From positions 1-20,912 of IMG/VR virus record IMGVR_UViG_3300036791_000617: a stretch of 20,912 nt of DNA; one strand, given 5' to 3'. Each line of letters starts with the position of its first letter. Within the stretch, counting starts at the first letter, position 1. Shown piece after piece: positions 1,836 to 10,459 of the stretch. The translations under genes and the position numbers were made by a program. The notes below the pieces were generated by a model that was given only the letters and a program-made list of their open reading frames with translations, was not told the origin of the DNA and ran no database searches. Source of the stretch: a virus.

Positions 1836-1866
1836 GGCGGTTTATCGCCTTTCGTGTCGCGGTTTG

Positions 1867-1900
1867 GAAGCGACTACGAATCGACTACGTCGCGACCACG
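1867..1900 (+). repeat. Left attP arm: three CGAC(T/C)ACG repeats at 11-bp period
   Basis: CGACTACG occurs at 1871-1878 and 1882-1889 and CGACCACG at 1893-1900. All are in the same orientation with starts exactly 11 bp apart, about one helical turn. The longer word GAAGCGACTACG (1867-1878) recurs on the other side of the tRNA fragment at 2112-2123. This layout matches arm-type sites bound by the N-terminal domain of lambda-class tyrosine integrases. The repeats are seen directly; binding is inferred. Confidence 0.65.
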
Positions 1901-2009: not shown

Positions 2010-2054
2010 TTTCGGCTTGGGAAGCCGACGCTCTACCAGCTGAGCTACGTTCGC
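2010..2054 (-). other. attP: attP core: 5' half of tRNA-Gly(CCC)
   Basis: On the minus strand the sequence runs exactly like a tRNA from its first base: acceptor 5' strand GCGAACG (2054-2048), TA, D-arm GCTC-AGCTGGTA-GAGC, then anticodon arm TCGGC-TTCCCAA-GCCGA (2028-2012) with anticodon CCC (Gly). Past about 2010 it loses tRNA character: there is no variable loop, T-arm or 3' acceptor strand. It is therefore a fragment and not a working gene. The integrase gene ends 25 bp away. Phage genes lie on both sides, so this is attP in an unintegrated phage. The symmetric anticodon stem around a 7-base loop is a suitable core site, and the loop is the likely overlap region. Confidence 0.8.
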
Positions 2055-2078
2055 ATTTGCCTGCATATCAGCCACTTT

Positions 2079-3155
2079 TCAGCTTTCGTCGGACTCGTTC
2101 GACGCGGCTATGAAGCGACTACGTTGGGCGAGCATATCGCGGAGGGTAGTTTCGGAGTCGGCGGCGAGGTGGCCGTAGTGGCGTTGGATCATGTCGGGTG
2201 AGCAGCCCATGAGGCGGGCTAGTTGCCAGATGCCGATGCCGGCGGCGAGTGCTTCGGTGGCGAATGTGTGGCGTAGGTGGTATGGGCCGCGTTGGGGGAC
2301 GCCGGCGGCTTCCAGGGCAGGGGTCCATAGCCGGTTGCGCCAGTTGTTGAGGTTGATGTGTCCGCCGCCGTCGGCGGGGAACAGGATCGGAGTGTCGATC
2401 CGAGCGGTAACGAGCTCCAGGGCGTCGACGGCGGCGGGTGTGAGCGGCACCCGGCGCCTGGTCGTCTTCGGGTATGGCGTTAGTTGGCCGTGGGCGTAGC
2501 GGCGGGCGACGGCGACGGCGGGGTTGTGGCGGTCGATGTCGCGGCGTTCGAGTGCGATCCATTCGTGGGTGCGTAGGCCGGTCGCGGCGGCGAATGTGAC
2601 GATCGCGGCGTCTTGGGGTGCGAGTTCGTCGCAGATCTGGTCGATTTCGTCGGTGGTGAATGGCCGGATTTCGTCGGCGCGTGGTTGGGTGTTGCGGCTG
2701 GCGGCGACGGCTGGGTTGCGGTTGATGTAGCCCCAGCGGACGGCGGCTTGGAGGACTTGGCGGAGGGCGCGGGTTTGTTTGTGGCGGGCGTCGTCGGTTT
2801 CGATGCGGCTGCGCCATCGGTTGATGTCGTTGGCGGCGCCTTCGAGTTCGGCGAGGGTCCAGGTGCCGAACCGGGTGCGGGCTGGGGCGAGCCAATGTTG
2901 GATGGTGGTGCGGGTGCGTGGCATGACGTCGATGCCCCATCGTTGGAGGTAGTCGTCGCAGAATTGGTTGAAGGTGATTTCTGGGGTTGGGGTGCCGCGT
3001 CGGATGTTGGGTTTGGCGTGTTGGTCGAACCAGTCGCGGGCGGCGGTTTTGGTTCGGAAGGGGCCGGGGTTGCGGTGTTCTTCGCCTGCTGTTTGCCAGC
3101 GGATGCCGTAGCCGCCTTTTACGGGGTAGGTGGATCCGCGTGTGGGTCTGGGCAC
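2079..3155 (-). CDS. int: Tyrosine site-specific integrase
   Basis: A 358-residue integrase that catalyses recombination between attP and a host tRNA-Gly gene. Residues 8-55 form an AP2-like arm-binding domain (GGYGIRW, FRTKTAARDWF), 60-150 a SAM-like core-binding domain and 165-340 the catalytic domain. Visible active-site residues are Arg195 (ATGLRTHEW), Lys230 (YPKTTRRR), Arg295 (YHLRHTFAT) and nucleophile Tyr327 (QRHYGHL). The first His of the usual HxxR is Tyr292, and the later His/Trp position is Cys318 (LMGCSP); both kinds of change are seen in actinophage integrases. The GTG start at 3155 has a GGAG Shine-Dalgarno 8-9 bases upstream. The stop is 25 bp from the attP tRNA fragment, and the excisionase gene ends 4 bp upstream. 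Right-arm repeats lie inside the last codons. Confidence 0.95.
   Translation of the reverse strand: MPRPTRGSTYPVKGGYGIRWQTAGEEHRNPGPFRTKTAARDWFDQHAKPNIRRGTPTPEITFNQFCDDYLQRWGIDVMPRTRTTIQHWLAPARTRFGTWTLAELEGAANDINRWRSRIETDDARHKQTRALRQVLQAAVRWGYINRNPAVAASRNTQPRADEIRPFTTDEIDQICDELAPQDAAIVTFAAATGLRTHEWIALERRDIDRHNPAVAVARRYAHGQLTPYPKTTRRRVPLTPAAVDALELVTARIDTPILFPADGGGHINLNNWRNRLWTPALEAAGVPQRGPYHLRHTFATEALAAGIGIWQLARLMGCSPDMIQRHYGHLAADSETTLRDMLAQRSRFIAASNESDES
2105..2123 (+). repeat. Right attP arm: two repeats at 11-bp period
   Basis: CGACTACG at 2116-2123, inside the 12-mer GAAGCGACTACG (2112-2123), matches the left-arm repeat in the same orientation. A degenerate copy CGGCTATG (6 of 8) begins exactly 11 bp earlier at 2105. 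Both lie within the 3' codons of the integrase gene, on the opposite side of the tRNA core from the left-arm repeats. They are probable arm-type integrase sites. Confidence 0.55.
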
Positions 3156-3159
3156 TGGT

Positions 3160-3423
3160 CTACTCCTCGCTTTGGGGTGTGGGTGACGGAGTAGACGTTA
3201 GCCTGATGGGGCGGGCGGCGTCGGCGGTGTGGGTGACATCACCTCGCTTTGGCGTCGCCCGTTCTGCGAGCCATTGGTCGAGGTCTTCTTCGCGGAATCG
3301 GATGGCGCCGTTGGGGAGTTTGAAGGCGGGGAGGTTGCCGTTTCGGACCCATGCGAGGATGGTTTCGGTGGTGAGTCCGAGGTTGTCGGCGACGTGGCGG
3401 GCGGTGAGTAGCCGGCCGATCAT
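3160..3423 (-). CDS. xis: Excisionase-like MerR/BldC-type HTH protein
   Basis: An 87-residue protein beginning MIGRLLTARHVADNLGLTTE. The first 60 residues are a classic HTH_17 (AlpA/BldC/excisionase) winged helix: LTARHVADNLG, TILAWVRNGNLPAFKL, then the wing (NGAIRFREEDLDQWL). Such proteins bind and bend DNA at attP to direct excision; some act as small transcription factors. The C-terminal 30 residues are Ser/Thr/Pro-rich and probably disordered. The start at 3423 overlaps the stop of the previous gene (ATGA). The position immediately before the integrase supports an excisionase role, although a purely regulatory role is possible. Confidence 0.8.
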   Translation of the reverse strand: MIGRLLTARHVADNLGLTTETILAWVRNGNLPAFKLPNGAIRFREEDLDQWLAERATPKRGDVTHTADAARPIRLTSTPSPTPQSEE

Positions 3424-3638
3424 CGGAGGCGTCCTTTGGGGCGGTTGAGCTCGCGGCGGGCGATCCGCAGGAGAGCGCGGCGGGCGGCGGCGACCCACCG
3501 GTACAGCTGTTCGAGCTCGGTGTCGGATTGGGCCTGGTGGGTGTGGTCTCGGGCGCGTTCGAGGGAGTGGCCGGCGCGGTCGAGGTGGCGGGCGGCGTCT
3601 CTCAGGTGGGCGGTGAGGTTGTTCGCCGGCGGGGTCAT
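3420..3638 (-). CDS. Small helical hypothetical protein
   Basis: A 72-residue, Arg/Ala-rich, mostly helical protein (MTPPANNLTAHLRDAARHLD, then YRWVAAARRALLRIARREL). It has no recognised domain and no membrane helix, and the C-terminal half is strongly basic. It is linked by 4-bp ATGA overlaps to the nuclease gene upstream and to the excisionase gene downstream, so it is almost certainly translated as part of the early operon. The function is unknown. A basic helical pair could contact nucleic acid, but nothing specific supports that. Confidence 0.65.
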   Translation of the reverse strand: MTPPANNLTAHLRDAARHLDRAGHSLERARDHTHQAQSDTELEQLYRWVAAARRALLRIARRELNRPKGRLR

Positions 3639-3961
3639 AGTTCGCGGAGGGCGAGGAGGTCGAGGAGGTCGTCGAGGGGGAGTGTGGCCATCCAGTCGTG
3701 GCGGCTGGGGCGGTGGATGACGATGGGGATGTCGAGCTCGTGGGCGTCGTCGATCGCTTGGCGTAGGGCTTTGGGGACGTTGAGGCGTTCTTGGCGTTTG
3801 ATTTCGATGTGGGTGCCGGGTGGGCCGGCGAGGATGTCGCCGCGTCCGACCTGGTCGCGGCCGTTGGATGTGCGTTGGGCGTGGGTCCAGCCGGCAGCGC
3901 GGAGGATGGCGACGATTTGGCGTTCGGCGACGGCGCCTTTGGTGCGGTCGCTCGCGGTCAT
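3635..3961 (-). CDS. PD-(D/E)XK nuclease, Holliday junction resolvase-like
   Basis: A 108-residue protein with the compact Hjc/VRR-NUC-type PD-(D/E)XK fold. The motifs are in order: Glu13 in the first helix (GAVAERQIVAILRAAGW), Asp42 (GRGDILAG), and Glu53-Ile-Lys55 (HIEIKRQE), followed by a basic helix (VPKALRQAIDDA). The length and the order of motifs fit archaeal-type Holliday junction resolvases, which cut four-way junctions made during recombination or replication. The ATG at 3961 overlaps the stop of the mIHF-like gene, and an in-frame upstream extension only shadows that gene. With the RecT-like protein and exonuclease upstream it would complete a phage recombination set. Junction specificity is inferred. 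Confidence 0.8.
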   Translation of the reverse strand: MTASDRTKGAVAERQIVAILRAAGWTHAQRTSNGRDQVGRGDILAGPPGTHIEIKRQERLNVPKALRQAIDDAHELDIPIVIHRPSRHDWMATLPLDDLLDLLALREL

Positions 3962-7344: not shown

Positions 7345-7542
7345 CTACCCGGGGTTGTGGGGCGGGTTGATGGGTGCTACTTCGACGTGTGGGAGGTGTG
7401 GCCGTGCGTTTGCGGCGGCGGTTTGTTCGTCGATGCGGGCGGCGAGTTTCGCGAGCTCGGTGTTGTCGACGCGGTTGCGTCGCCATTCGTAGGCCGCGAT
7501 GGCGGCGGCGATGGTGGCGACGGCGACGACGGCGAGGATCAT
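7345..7542 (-). CDS. Small membrane-anchored protein coupled to the repressor
   Basis: A 65-residue protein with one N-terminal membrane helix (MILAVVAVATIAAAIAAYEW), a short basic stop-transfer (RRNR), a heptad-like helix (ELAKLAARIDEQTAAANAR) and a Pro-rich tail. Its ATG overlaps the stop of the PAS-HTH gene (ATGA), so it should be made at a fixed ratio to it, including in the lysogen if that gene is the repressor. Possible roles are superinfection exclusion or a membrane partner of the PAS protein. Both are inferred from position; the family is not recognised. Confidence 0.7.
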   Translation of the reverse strand: MILAVVAVATIAAAIAAYEWRRNRVDNTELAKLAARIDEQTAAANARPHLPHVEVAPINPPHNPG

Positions 7543-8192
7543 TTGCCGTTCAGTGGCCGGAACAGTTCACCGACGGGAACTTTGAGCGTGTCGGCGATCC
7601 GTTGGAGGTTGTCACTGTTGGGGTGGATCCGCGCGTTTTCCCAGGCGGATACGTGTTGGCGGTGTTTGCCGAGCATGACCGCGAGTTTTTCTTGGGAGAT
7701 TTTCTGTTCGCGGCGTACGCGGCGGATGTTGACGGCGATTAGGTTGGTGACGGGGTCGGTGGTGGTCATTGGATTGGACACTTGCACCAGGACCGGCTCC
7801 TGCCAAGAATCGCCGCGCGTTTCATGAAACGCCGCGTTATGCGGGATTGTCGCAATTTGCGGGAAAAATCTTAGGACCGTCACGTAATGCTTTACTTTCT
7901 GGTACAGGACCGGCCAGCACATTCCACGGAACTTGAGCGGTTGCCGGTCGCGGTCGAGTAGCGTCGTGTCGCCCGCCCACCACGCGTTTCGGCGTAGGTT
8001 GTCGACACTCCGTTCGCGGGTCGGCGCGTCGACGTCTGGGGACAGTTGTTCGTACGCGGGCCGGCCGATCACTTCTCTCGCCGTCAGCTGGAACGTACCT
8101 TCGAACGCGTGGTTGACCACGGCGATTGTGAGGTCGGGGTCGGCGCGGACGGCGTACGCGGGCGTATCGACGATGTCGACCAGGCGTTGCAT
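7539..8192 (-). CDS. PAS-HTH transcriptional regulator, putative phage repressor
   Basis: A 217-residue regulator. Residues 1-110 look like a PAS sensor domain (PDLTIAVVNHAFEGTFQLTA, EVIGRPAYEQL, the beta-strands KFRGMCWPVLYQ and HYVTVLRFF). Residues 150-213 form a Cro/C1-type HTH (NIRRVRREQKISQEKLAVML, HVSAWENARIHPNSDNL, IADTLKVPVGELF). No S24/LexA-like self-cleavage domain is present. The start at 8192 has a strong Shine-Dalgarno (GGAAGGGA) about 7 bases upstream, and a good minus-strand promoter lies at 8307-8336. An internal ATG at 7769 would make an HTH-only form, but it lacks a clear ribosome site. Position and promoter point to the lysogeny repressor or switch regulator; the ligand is unknown. 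Confidence 0.8.
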   Translation of the reverse strand: MQRLVDIVDTPAYAVRADPDLTIAVVNHAFEGTFQLTAREVIGRPAYEQLSPDVDAPTRERSVDNLRRNAWWAGDTTLLDRDRQPLKFRGMCWPVLYQKVKHYVTVLRFFPQIATIPHNAAFHETRGDSWQEPVLVQVSNPMTTTDPVTNLIAVNIRRVRREQKISQEKLAVMLGKHRQHVSAWENARIHPNSDNLQRIADTLKVPVGELFRPLNGK

Positions 8193-8336: not shown

Positions 8337-8379
8337 GGCCTTGCCTAGGCGCGGTTATCATTGCACCACCATGCCTAGG
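8335..8379 (+). promoter_or_regulatory. Operator-like repeats and -10 element of the divergent HTH gene
   Basis: Two palindromes touch: AAGGCCTT (8335-8342) and GCCTAGGC (8343-8350). TGCCTAGG at 8342-8349 recurs at 8372-8379, 30 bp on. Between them TATCAT (8356-8361) is a plausible -10 on the plus strand, 9 bp before the ATG at 8371, so the HTH mRNA may be leaderless. There is no good -35, which suggests activation or a weak promoter. The repeats could be binding sites for either HTH protein and lie just upstream of the repressor's -35. Confidence 0.45.
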
Positions 8380-8667
8380 ATTTCGCCGCTATCGGCAAAT
8401 GGATCATTGGCGTTCAAACTCTTGGACATGGCGCCGAGGGAAGATGCGTACAGCGCCTACAAGGTCGAGTTTGGGCTCCGTCTCGCCGCACTACGGAACG
8501 CCAAGAAACTGAGCCAGCGGGAGTTGGCGCTGCAACTGCCGGGCAGCACTGACGGGCCGCAGGTCAGTCGGTGGGAGCGCGGGGAGTCGCTGCCGATCTA
8601 CCCGACGCGTCTGGTGATCGCCGAGGTGCTCGGCGTCACGTTGCAATACCTGGACCACGGCGACTAG
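8371..8667 (+). CDS. Cro/CI-type HTH regulator (only plus-strand gene)
   Basis: A 98-residue DNA-binding protein with an XRE-type [22 protein letters not shown], then [19 protein letters not shown] and [16 protein letters not shown]. The recognition helix is in QVSRWERGE. It is transcribed away from the PAS-HTH gene, from a shared region with paired palindromes, as Cro is from CI. The ATG at 8371 is preferred because a TATCAT box ends 9 bp upstream, giving a leaderless message; TTG at 8341 and ATG at 8428 are alternatives. Its stop overlaps the stop of the convergent collagen-like tail gene. Whether it is the Cro-like or the main repressor is open. Confidence 0.8.
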
Positions 8668-9284
8668 CCGGCTTTGATTTGCGCGTAGGTGGGGGCGAGC
8701 GGGGTCAGTCGGCCGAATGCGGTGGCGGGCCAGGCGCCGGCGGCTTTGGGTCCCCACATCCGGCCGGTGGTGGTGTCGAGGTAGATCGATCCGTCGACGC
8801 CGGTGCCGGCGGTCGGGGCGCCGGTGCCGCTGACGAACGTGGATGCGCCGGACGGGCCGGCGGGCCCTGTCGGACCTGTCGGGCCTGGTGGGCCCGTTGT
8901 TCCTGTGGGTCCCGCAGTGCCTGTTGCCCCCGGCGGGCCTGCGGGGCCTGTTGCCCCGGTTGGGCCGGCCGGTCCGGTTGGGCCGGTGGGTCCTGCGGGA
9001 CCGGTGGTGCCGCCGCCGCCGGCTGGGGGTGTGGCGGTGACGGTTCCGGCTGCCCACATTCTGGTTCCATCGGCGAGGATGTAGGCGGGTGCGCCGGCGG
9101 GCGGCTGGGTCATCCCGTTGAGCTGCGGGATTTGGTAGGTGGCGCCGCCGAGCTCGATGTTGGCGTACCGGCGGTCGGTGCCGGCGGGTGCGTATGTGCC
9201 GACGATCATCCGTAGGCCGGTGTCGGTGTCGAGTGCGCGGCGTAGGACGGCGGCGAGCGTGCGGGTGGCGGGTACGTTGGTCAT
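8664..9284 (-). CDS. Collagen-like minor tail protein / tail fibre
   Basis: A 206-residue protein. Residues 1-88 form an N-terminal domain ([38 protein letters not shown]) that probably anchors it to the tail tip. Residues 93-147 (8844-9008) are about 18 Gly-X-Y triplets, mostly GPT/GPA/ATG, forming a collagen-like triple helix. Residues 148-206 are a small C-terminal module with a typical phage fibre sequence ([20 protein letters not shown]) ending TYAQIKAG. Collagen stalks are common in actinophage tail fibres. The start at 9284 overlaps the upstream stop (ATGA); the stop overlaps that of the convergent HTH gene. A role in receptor binding is inferred. Confidence 0.8.
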
Positions 9285-10459
9285 GCGGCGATCGGTTTCG
9301 CGTCGGCAGCTTCGCGCCACACGTCCCGGCCGTGGTAACGCCGGTTTGTGTGCGGCGTGATGGTCGGGGTTAGGAGCGTGCGGGTGATGATGTTTTGCGG
9401 GTCGGTGTGCAGGCTGGTAACGACTTGGTCGATGAGGTGCTGTTCGGTGCGGCCGTCGGGGTAGTCGACTTGGATGGTGTCGCCGGCTTCGAGCGCGGGG
9501 TTTGGGGCGGTGGTGAGCGTCAGCTGCTGGGTTTGTTTGAGCTGCAGGTTCAGCAGCGATTGGGCGGTTGCGGCGGCGTCGGCGTCGGTGGCGGCGGTGG
9601 TGGAGTCGGCCATTAGCGCGACCTTGCCGAATGGGCCGCCCCATCTGACGGCGGAGGTCGGGTCGTCGTAGGTCGCGAGGCCGGTGACGGGCGCGCCGTC
9701 GGCTGCGCTTGTGCCGGTGACGATCACGCCGTTGTAGATGCCGGTGCGGTCCAGGGATTCAGACGCGTCGACCATCACCCCGGTTTGGCTGGCGTCGACG
9801 GTCCAGACGACGGGGTCGGTGCCGGCTGGTTTGGCGGCGAATATGAAGTCGCCGTTGGCGTTGAAGTACGTTTCGGCGGCGTAGGACTGTTCGAGTGTCG
9901 AGATGGCGTCGGTGCGTAGGCCGGTGAATGTGATGTCGCCCATCGGTGTCGGCGGCTGGTACGGCTGCAGGTAGGCGATCGCCGATCCGAACACGTCTTG
10001 GACGATCCCGCACGCGACGTCGGCGGGCAGCATGCCGGCGGCGGCGTATGGGGCGGTGAACGGTTCGTCGGCGAGCTGGGCGCCACGATCGGCGAGCTCC
10101 AGTGTCGCGGACGCGTCGAGGGTGTCCCAGGTGACGGATTCGACTCGCAGGCGCCCGAGTAGAACGAGTTCGGTGGTGCCGTCGGCGTATCGGAGGCCTC
10201 GGTGAACGAGCGCGTATCCGCCGAGTGGAAGTGTGCGAATGTCGATTCCGAGGTTTTCGCTTTGGTCGAGTGACCAGGGGATTTGGATGGTGCCTACCCG
10301 CCGGTTTTGGGCGGTCCGGTCGATCGTGACGGTGCCGTCTTCGACGGGGACCGATACGGCGTCCGCATCGGTTTGGCCGGGAAAGATGAGCTCGCACGCG
10401 GACGCGATGACGTGCGAATAGCGGAGCGATTCGAAGAACTGGTTGGTGGCGGACTGCAT
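9281..10459 (-). CDS. Minor tail protein, DUF5047-like
   Basis: A 392-residue tail protein. The N-terminal half has beta-rich sequence with [20 protein letters not shown] and the start [20 protein letters not shown], typical of the DUF5047 family of actinophage tail proteins. The C-terminal half ([40 protein letters not shown]) resembles the baseplate-hub-like part of such proteins. It sits after the tape measure and one other minor tail gene, where distal tail and hub proteins lie. The start at ATG 10459 gives an ATGA overlap; an earlier in-frame ATG at 10480 lies in the upstream gene. Confidence 0.8.

Follow-up and report, generated by a model that had tools for sequence, protein, structure and literature searches.

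In nearly all elements that target tRNA genes, the rebuilt tRNA stays behind the host promoter, and the cause of this polarity bias is an old question. The anticodon stem-loop is known to resemble the lambda core site, with the loop as the overlap (PMC8371274). In the Islander survey, 159 of 3919 islands were found with a displaced 5′ fragment of the target tRNA gene (PMC4383910). Archaeal pTN3-like integrases use the 5′ half, and the tRNA is then reported to be expressed from the integrase promoter (PMC8371274, PMC5495485); in bacteria, use of this half is described as 'seldomly' met (PMC8371274). tRNA-Gly(CCC) is a frequent target of actinobacteriophages, whose cores typically contain the 3′ half (PMC10865867). 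Here we describe a 5′ half of tRNA-Gly(CCC) in the IMG/VR virus record IMGVR_UViG_3300036791_000617, the whole of which (20,912 bases) was analysed and is called the window below. The fragment is very probably the phage attachment site (attP) of a small, temperate soil phage of actinobacteria. The tyrosine integrase of this phage very probably recombines in the anticodon stem-loop of the Thermoleophilia tRNA-Gly(CCC) gene, with a polarity opposite to that of nearly all its relatives.

The minus strand of the window reads GCGAACGTAGCTCAGCTGGTAGAGCGTCGGCTTCCCAAGCCGA from position 2054 to 2012, that is, from nucleotide (nt) 1 of tRNA-Gly(CCC) through the 3′ end of the anticodon stem. In an alignment with tRNA-Gly(CCC) of Svornostia abyssi, one of the closest host genes, nt 1–44 could be aligned (to position 2011) with a sole mismatch at nt 4, and the match was lost at position 2010. 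An earlier note on this DNA had described a fragment that runs from tRNA base 1 to the end of the anticodon stem and then stops, which the alignment bears out; its boundaries shift from 2010–2054 to 2011–2054. The 3′ half is missing, since ARAGORN detected no tRNA gene anywhere in the window; Rfam gave no matches there at gathering scores. Judged by its sequence, a near-exact 43-nt match bounded by tRNA base 1 and the anticodon stem is not a product of chance. The fragment starts 24 nt past the stop codon of a 358-residue tyrosine integrase (2079–3155, minus strand) and is read in the same direction. As in other systems of tyrosine integrases that target tRNA genes, a catalytic domain (PF00589, E = 6.4e-12) is thereby found together with a piece of host tRNA that ends in the anticodon arm. 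The window also encodes terminase-like, portal, capsid, tail, amidase and RecT-like proteins; no end repeats were found in its 20,912 bases.

With the window integrase alone as the query, no relative was found in viral contigs. Relatives were reached via the portal protein and via an integrase alignment: 80 portal relatives were kept from IMG/VR, and 17 of the 43 records searched contained PF00589. The closest integrases, by alignment or tblastn, were those of loci L137 (63%), L215 and L268 (both 55%), L270 (54%) and L152 (52–53%). Chromosomal relatives were present in 10 of 232 genomes of Svornostia's order (E ≤ 1e-35) and 23 of 399 genomes of its class (E ≤ 1e-45). Polarity was surveyed at 39 integrase gene (int) loci, in a span of 150 nt upstream and 650 nt downstream of the int stop codon, with the 45 tRNAs of S. 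abyssi as the library. The set contains some duplicates, namely the near-identical integrases L186, L220 and L229, and L317, which is the same element as L180 in another collection; L186, L220, L229 and L317 were omitted from the tree. At 34 of the 39 loci the tRNA was convergent with int, as a complete gene or a 3′ part (Thr, Asp, Ala, Arg, Val, Met or Pro, and Gly(CCC) in L236), so the 3′ part is the common arrangement among relatives too, as the earlier note had stated for phages and islands in general. Two loci carried a co-directional 5′ half of tRNA-Gly(CCC): the window (nt 1–44) and L137 (nt 1–43), where 15 nt separate it from int. L268 had no tRNA within 650 nt of int; nt 1–41 of tRNA-Gly(CCC) were found, co-directional, 2.4 kb downstream. 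It belongs to a different phage, as its 33.2-kb record gave no match to the portal. The integrases of the window, L137 and L268 formed a clade (support 100/99) inside a wider clade (100/99) with L152 (Val), L215 (Ala) and L270 (Asp), and the 5′ polarity is therefore nested among 3′-types.

Two further loci, L192 (in G058) and L231 (in G437), had a co-directional 3′ piece of tRNA-Leu(CAG). They were considered as 5′-types and rejected: in L231 the complete tRNA-Leu(CAG) and a 31-nt repeat lie at the opposite end of the element, which is hence a 3′-type with int on the far side; L192, where the contig ends, was assigned by analogy. The two represent a tRNA-Leu(CAG)-targeting branch of the integrase family in which int is distal to the rebuilt tRNA. 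Separately, the small phage L146 (in G014), which belongs to the same portal group and has a distant integrase, contained about 39 nt from the 5′ half of a tRNA-Ser (8921–8959), opposite to int and 427 nt away; a T-arm match was not found nearby. This is possibly an independent 5′-half attP.

Direct repeats flanked the core in the window, L137, L268 and the 3′-type L152. In the window, direct-repeat analysis placed one within the 3′ end of int (2103–2123, minus strand) and two overlapping copies, 11 nt apart, on the far side (1858–1889, minus strand); lying on both sides of the core, they are putative arm-type sites. Together with the match to the host gene, these repeats confirm the earlier claim of an attP that carries the 5′ and not the 3′ half of tRNA-Gly(CCC), and the site is intact. 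The start-to-start spacing of the arms was 234 nt in the window, L137 and L268, and 257 nt in L152, and copies spaced by 11 nt within one arm were present in the window, L268 and L152. The best far-side tandem pair with this 11-nt spacing stood at +131 from the middle of the anticodon in all four loci. In a control on one contig, tandem pairs with at least 10 matches occurred in none of 3000 random 80-nt stretches, and pairs with at least 9 in 1.6%. The int-side pair lay at −103, −101 and −101 in the window, L137 and L268, respectively, and at −127 in L152; 18 of 31 3′-type loci had such a pair (≥9/11 matches), 14 of them at −121 to −137 and four at −102 to −115. Between int and the tRNA half, the window also contains a TATGCAGGCA element (2058–2067, minus strand), in which GCAGG begins 44 nt ahead of the middle of the anticodon. 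GCAGG was the commonest 5-mer of the region 43–57 nt before the anticodon middle (24 of 36 loci), at 44 in the window and L137 and at 52–57 in 22 of the 34 3′-types. The most plausible reading of TATGCAGGCA is therefore a site for the integrase or for an accessory factor; that the shift from 52–57 to 44 reflects helical turns is suggestive only.

The candidate core (2012–2028, minus strand) is the palindrome of the anticodon stem-loop, TCGGCTT-CCC-AAGCCGA, whose overlap would contain the anticodon. Its boundary was set by analogy with a chromosomal prophage in G452 (integrase 55%), which is inserted in the 3′ mode and has both ends present. The 46-bp repeat of that prophage runs from the end of tRNA-Ala to ...CCGGCTTGCAAAGCCG, and its end falls on that side of the anticodon stem where the window fragment also ends. 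In the direction of int, the cores read GTCGGCTTCCCAAGCCGAA in the window, GTCGGCTTCCCAAGCCGAC in L137, TCCGGCTTGTCGAGCCGCT in L152, TCCGGCTTGCAAAGCCGGC in L215 and TTCGGCTTGGGAAGCCGAC in L236. The last of these uses tRNA-Gly(CCC) in the 3′ mode, and both polarities thus occur at the same tRNA. The window and L236 (TCGGCTT-GGG-AAGCCGA) share the 17-bp palindrome and differ at the central triplet alone.

We hypothesize that the anticodon stem offers the integrase two inverted core sites, TCGGCTT and AAGCCGA, around an overlap that contains the anticodon, where strand exchange would take place. Because the stem is palindromic, the tRNA could be docked in either direction. When the overlap read from int is CCC rather than GGG, the int-side arm of attP would have to supply the 5′ half, and the anticodon would thereby set the polarity. 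After integration, the host promoter would stay, together with the original 5′ half, at the distal end of the prophage. The rebuilt tRNA would consist of the phage 5′ half and the host 3′ half, 24 nt past the int stop codon and behind phage DNA, and would be transcribed by read-through from int or from a phage-side promoter. One integrase family uses one tRNA gene in both polarities, and since the cores of both differ only at the anticodon, the bias question becomes testable by a three-base swap.

The host range of the target was searched in one-per-species genomes. The exact 43-mer of the window had no match in the bacterial genome contigs searched, and a pattern degenerate at the two positions that vary between phages gave 38 host loci. 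These include 24 titled Solirubrobacterales or -aceae, Thermoleophilaceae, Conexibacter or Svornostia. ARAGORN found a complete tRNA-Gly(CCC) in 37 of the 38 (the exception, L131, is described below), so the matching host gene that the earlier note proposed to look for does exist. Three host variants of the 43-mer occurred 28, 6 and 4 times; the window differs from them at 2, 1 and 1 positions, L137 at 0, 1 and 1, and L268 at 1, 2 and 0, respectively. A4 is common to the window, L268 and the rarest host type, and the 3′ half of that type has the matching CGTTCGC. A host (Thermoleophilia), a target and a site anatomy are now assigned for a group of uncultivated soil phages. The Thermoleophilia-type pattern was also carried by metagenome-assembled genomes (MAGs) titled Planctomycetota (L117), 'Bifidobacterium breve' (L126) and Polyangiaceae (L132), whose contigs are probably mis-binned or mislabelled. 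L112 had tandem tRNA-Gly(CCC) genes (3520–3593 and 3749–3824), the second one diverged, and G268 and G051 likewise had two matches each.

Chromosomal junctions of the 5′ mode were found in relatives. In L131, a promoter-like TAGAAT is followed by an orphan nt 1–43 of tRNA-Gly(CCC) and then by unrelated DNA, with TTTGGGTCGC repeats at +90 and +109 that resemble the arm of L180's element. In L123, a frameshifted integrase C-terminus and its stop codon are followed by GTTTGGGCCACCATTGGGCCACG, CCTAAAATCG and a complete, co-directional tRNA-Gly(CCC), so that arm repeats and a −10 lie between the decayed int end and the tRNA. The remnant is 71–76% identical to L272 and L183 over short pieces. Methyltransferase-, radical-SAM- and transporter-like genes (by reading of translations) lie further upstream, and the prophage therefore seems lost. 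Both kinds of junction expected of an Islander-type 5′ fragment were thus seen (L131, L123), never both in one genome. In the tRNA-Gly search of the 399 genomes, which covers the best matches listed, there are at least as many orphan 5′ halves as noted here. Because these relatives' chromosomes show use of the 5′ mode, the hybrid tRNA proposed in the earlier note, with an int-side phage 5′ half and a host 3′ half, is well supported; recombination at the core allows nothing else. That it would be complete follows from sequence identity, the junctions being those of relatives alone.

Several observations weigh against this reading. The search for prophages at the junction, which the earlier note had proposed, yielded the 5′-mode junctions of relatives; no complete lysogen from the lineage of the window itself was found in 232, 399 and 129 genomes, where the best integrase was only 56% identical and of the 3′-type. 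The other end of L131 was not found in its 1.8-Mb MAG, and a misassembly is therefore possible at this junction. The integrase remnant of L123 lies on a different branch (L183/L272), and the GCAGG element is absent from L268. Short int-side distances also occur in the 3′-types L181 (−102), L218 (−110), L182 (−112) and L188 (−115); the distance of this arm does not define polarity and was dropped as its mark.

An arm pattern derived from L123 (null rate 0.0022 per locus with 7 or fewer mismatches) was found, among the 64 leaders of at least 110 nt, in L123, L125, L380 and L129 with 0, 1, 1 and 4 mismatches, respectively. L125 and L380 have identical 110-nt leaders. One copy is retained in L119, and the same pattern flanks both sides of a tRNA-Pro attP in the phage contig L390. 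The leaders of L119, L123, L125/L380 and L129 thus bear arm-site scars of phage between a chromosomal tRNA-Gly(CCC) and the upstream host DNA, with the −10 of the tRNA inside the scar, and are possibly domesticated phage leaders. We tentatively extend the hypothesis: the three anticodon pairs might be all that sets polarity, and repeated 5′-mode insertion with loss of the prophage might have given phage-derived tRNA-Gly(CCC) leaders to several Solirubrobacterales lineages. If this doubtful extension is true, both directions of insertion would be open to a single integrase, at tRNAs that differ in anticodon orientation.

The source of transcription of the rebuilt tRNA bears on an alternative, in which a phage promoter deliberately drives it and the prophage controls a host glycine tRNA. 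Host tRNA-Gly(CCC) genes have a TAGAAT-like −10 that starts mostly at −17 to −15; no clear −35 was found in the host leaders. On a promoter matrix built from 30 of the 38 host leaders (host median 10.3), L268, with TAGTAT at −18, scored 7.1 and L137, with TAGGCT at −18, scored 5.8, values reached by the top 0.24% and 1.1% of random segments, respectively. TAAAAT or TAGAAT also lies between the phage arm repeats and the tRNA in L123, L125 and L129. The window lacks such a hexamer, and in the window and L137 the region doubles as the GCAGG element. The weak −10 that the earlier note had proposed for the window, TGATAT (2065–2070, minus strand), does lie upstream of the tRNA, ending 10 nt before base 1 rather than about 13 bp away. 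It scored −0.7, as high as 21% of random segments, and overlaps the TATGCAGGCA element, which is shared with relatives and explained by the attP geometry; it was dropped as a promoter. S. abyssi further encodes tRNA-Gly(TCC), which can read GGG by wobble rules, so tRNA-Gly(CCC) may be dispensable. Control of the host tRNA by the prophage is thus unproven, and a dedicated phage promoter seems rather unlikely.

A retroregulatory role is less probable still. The tRNA half would then be a tRNA-like 3′ tag on the int transcript, and an RNase P cut at the rebuilt tRNA would silence int; the two are co-directional and close in the window (24 nt) and L137 (15 nt), but 2.4 kb apart in L268. Two other explanations are very improbable. 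If phages of this kind relied on tRNA-dependent lysogeny, known in actinobacteriophages (PMC10865867), the host tRNA would be broken and a phage tRNA would substitute for it, with a core of about 10 bp; the shared core here is 43–44 nt, and no tRNA gene was found in the window, L137 or the L268 and L387 stretches, records which are or, like the window's, may be partial. A passive relic of imprecise excision with host DNA, the real attP being elsewhere, is equally hard to accept: the fragment stops at tRNA base 1 without host leader, but in three phages that differ in arm sequence it keeps the standard distance to the arm repeats on either side, and conservation covers the tRNA bases and not the DNA around them.

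Integration at an attP that supplies the 5′ half would resemble the Islander 5′-fragment islands in its tyrosine integrase, tRNA target, rebuilt tRNA and 5′ fragment left behind (PMC4383910). The available text of that survey gives neither a polarity reversal within a family nor an attP geometry, whereas here the users are a phage clade with a relative that uses the same tRNA oppositely. As with the archaeal pTN3-like integrases, the rebuilt tRNA would be severed from its own promoter; integration of those elements disrupts the integrase gene (PMC8371274, PMC5495485), whereas here the attachment site is outside the int frame, 24 nt after the stop codon, and int stays intact. The integrases of B22, BritBrat, Spooky and Jace share the tRNA isotype, a core of 42–47 bp and a rebuilt tRNA (PMC10865867), a likeness that leaves polarity aside, cores in actinobacteriophages typically including the 3′ half according to the introduction of that paper. 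Named phages searched with the tRNA and the fragment gave mostly annotated full-length tRNA genes among the matches listed (60 of 623 and 60 of 300, respectively). No report of polarity reversal within one integrase family was found by titles and abstract openings, and Williams 2002 may discuss it. Integration with a 5′ fragment is known but rare; a reversal of polarity within one integrase family on one tRNA appears to be new among the literature searched.

Next to int, the window encodes a small Xis-like protein with an HTH_17 domain (3160–3498, minus strand; PF12728, E = 4.9e-12), a candidate recombination directionality factor. A repressor-like protein (7539–8192, minus strand) combines a PAS-like fold at its N terminus with a Cro/CI helix-turn-helix at its C terminus and is perhaps a sensing repressor; a second small helix-turn-helix gene (8341–8667) lies opposite to it. 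The reading frame at 8664–9644 (minus strand) contains a long collagen-like Gly-X-Y run and probably encodes a tail or fibre protein.
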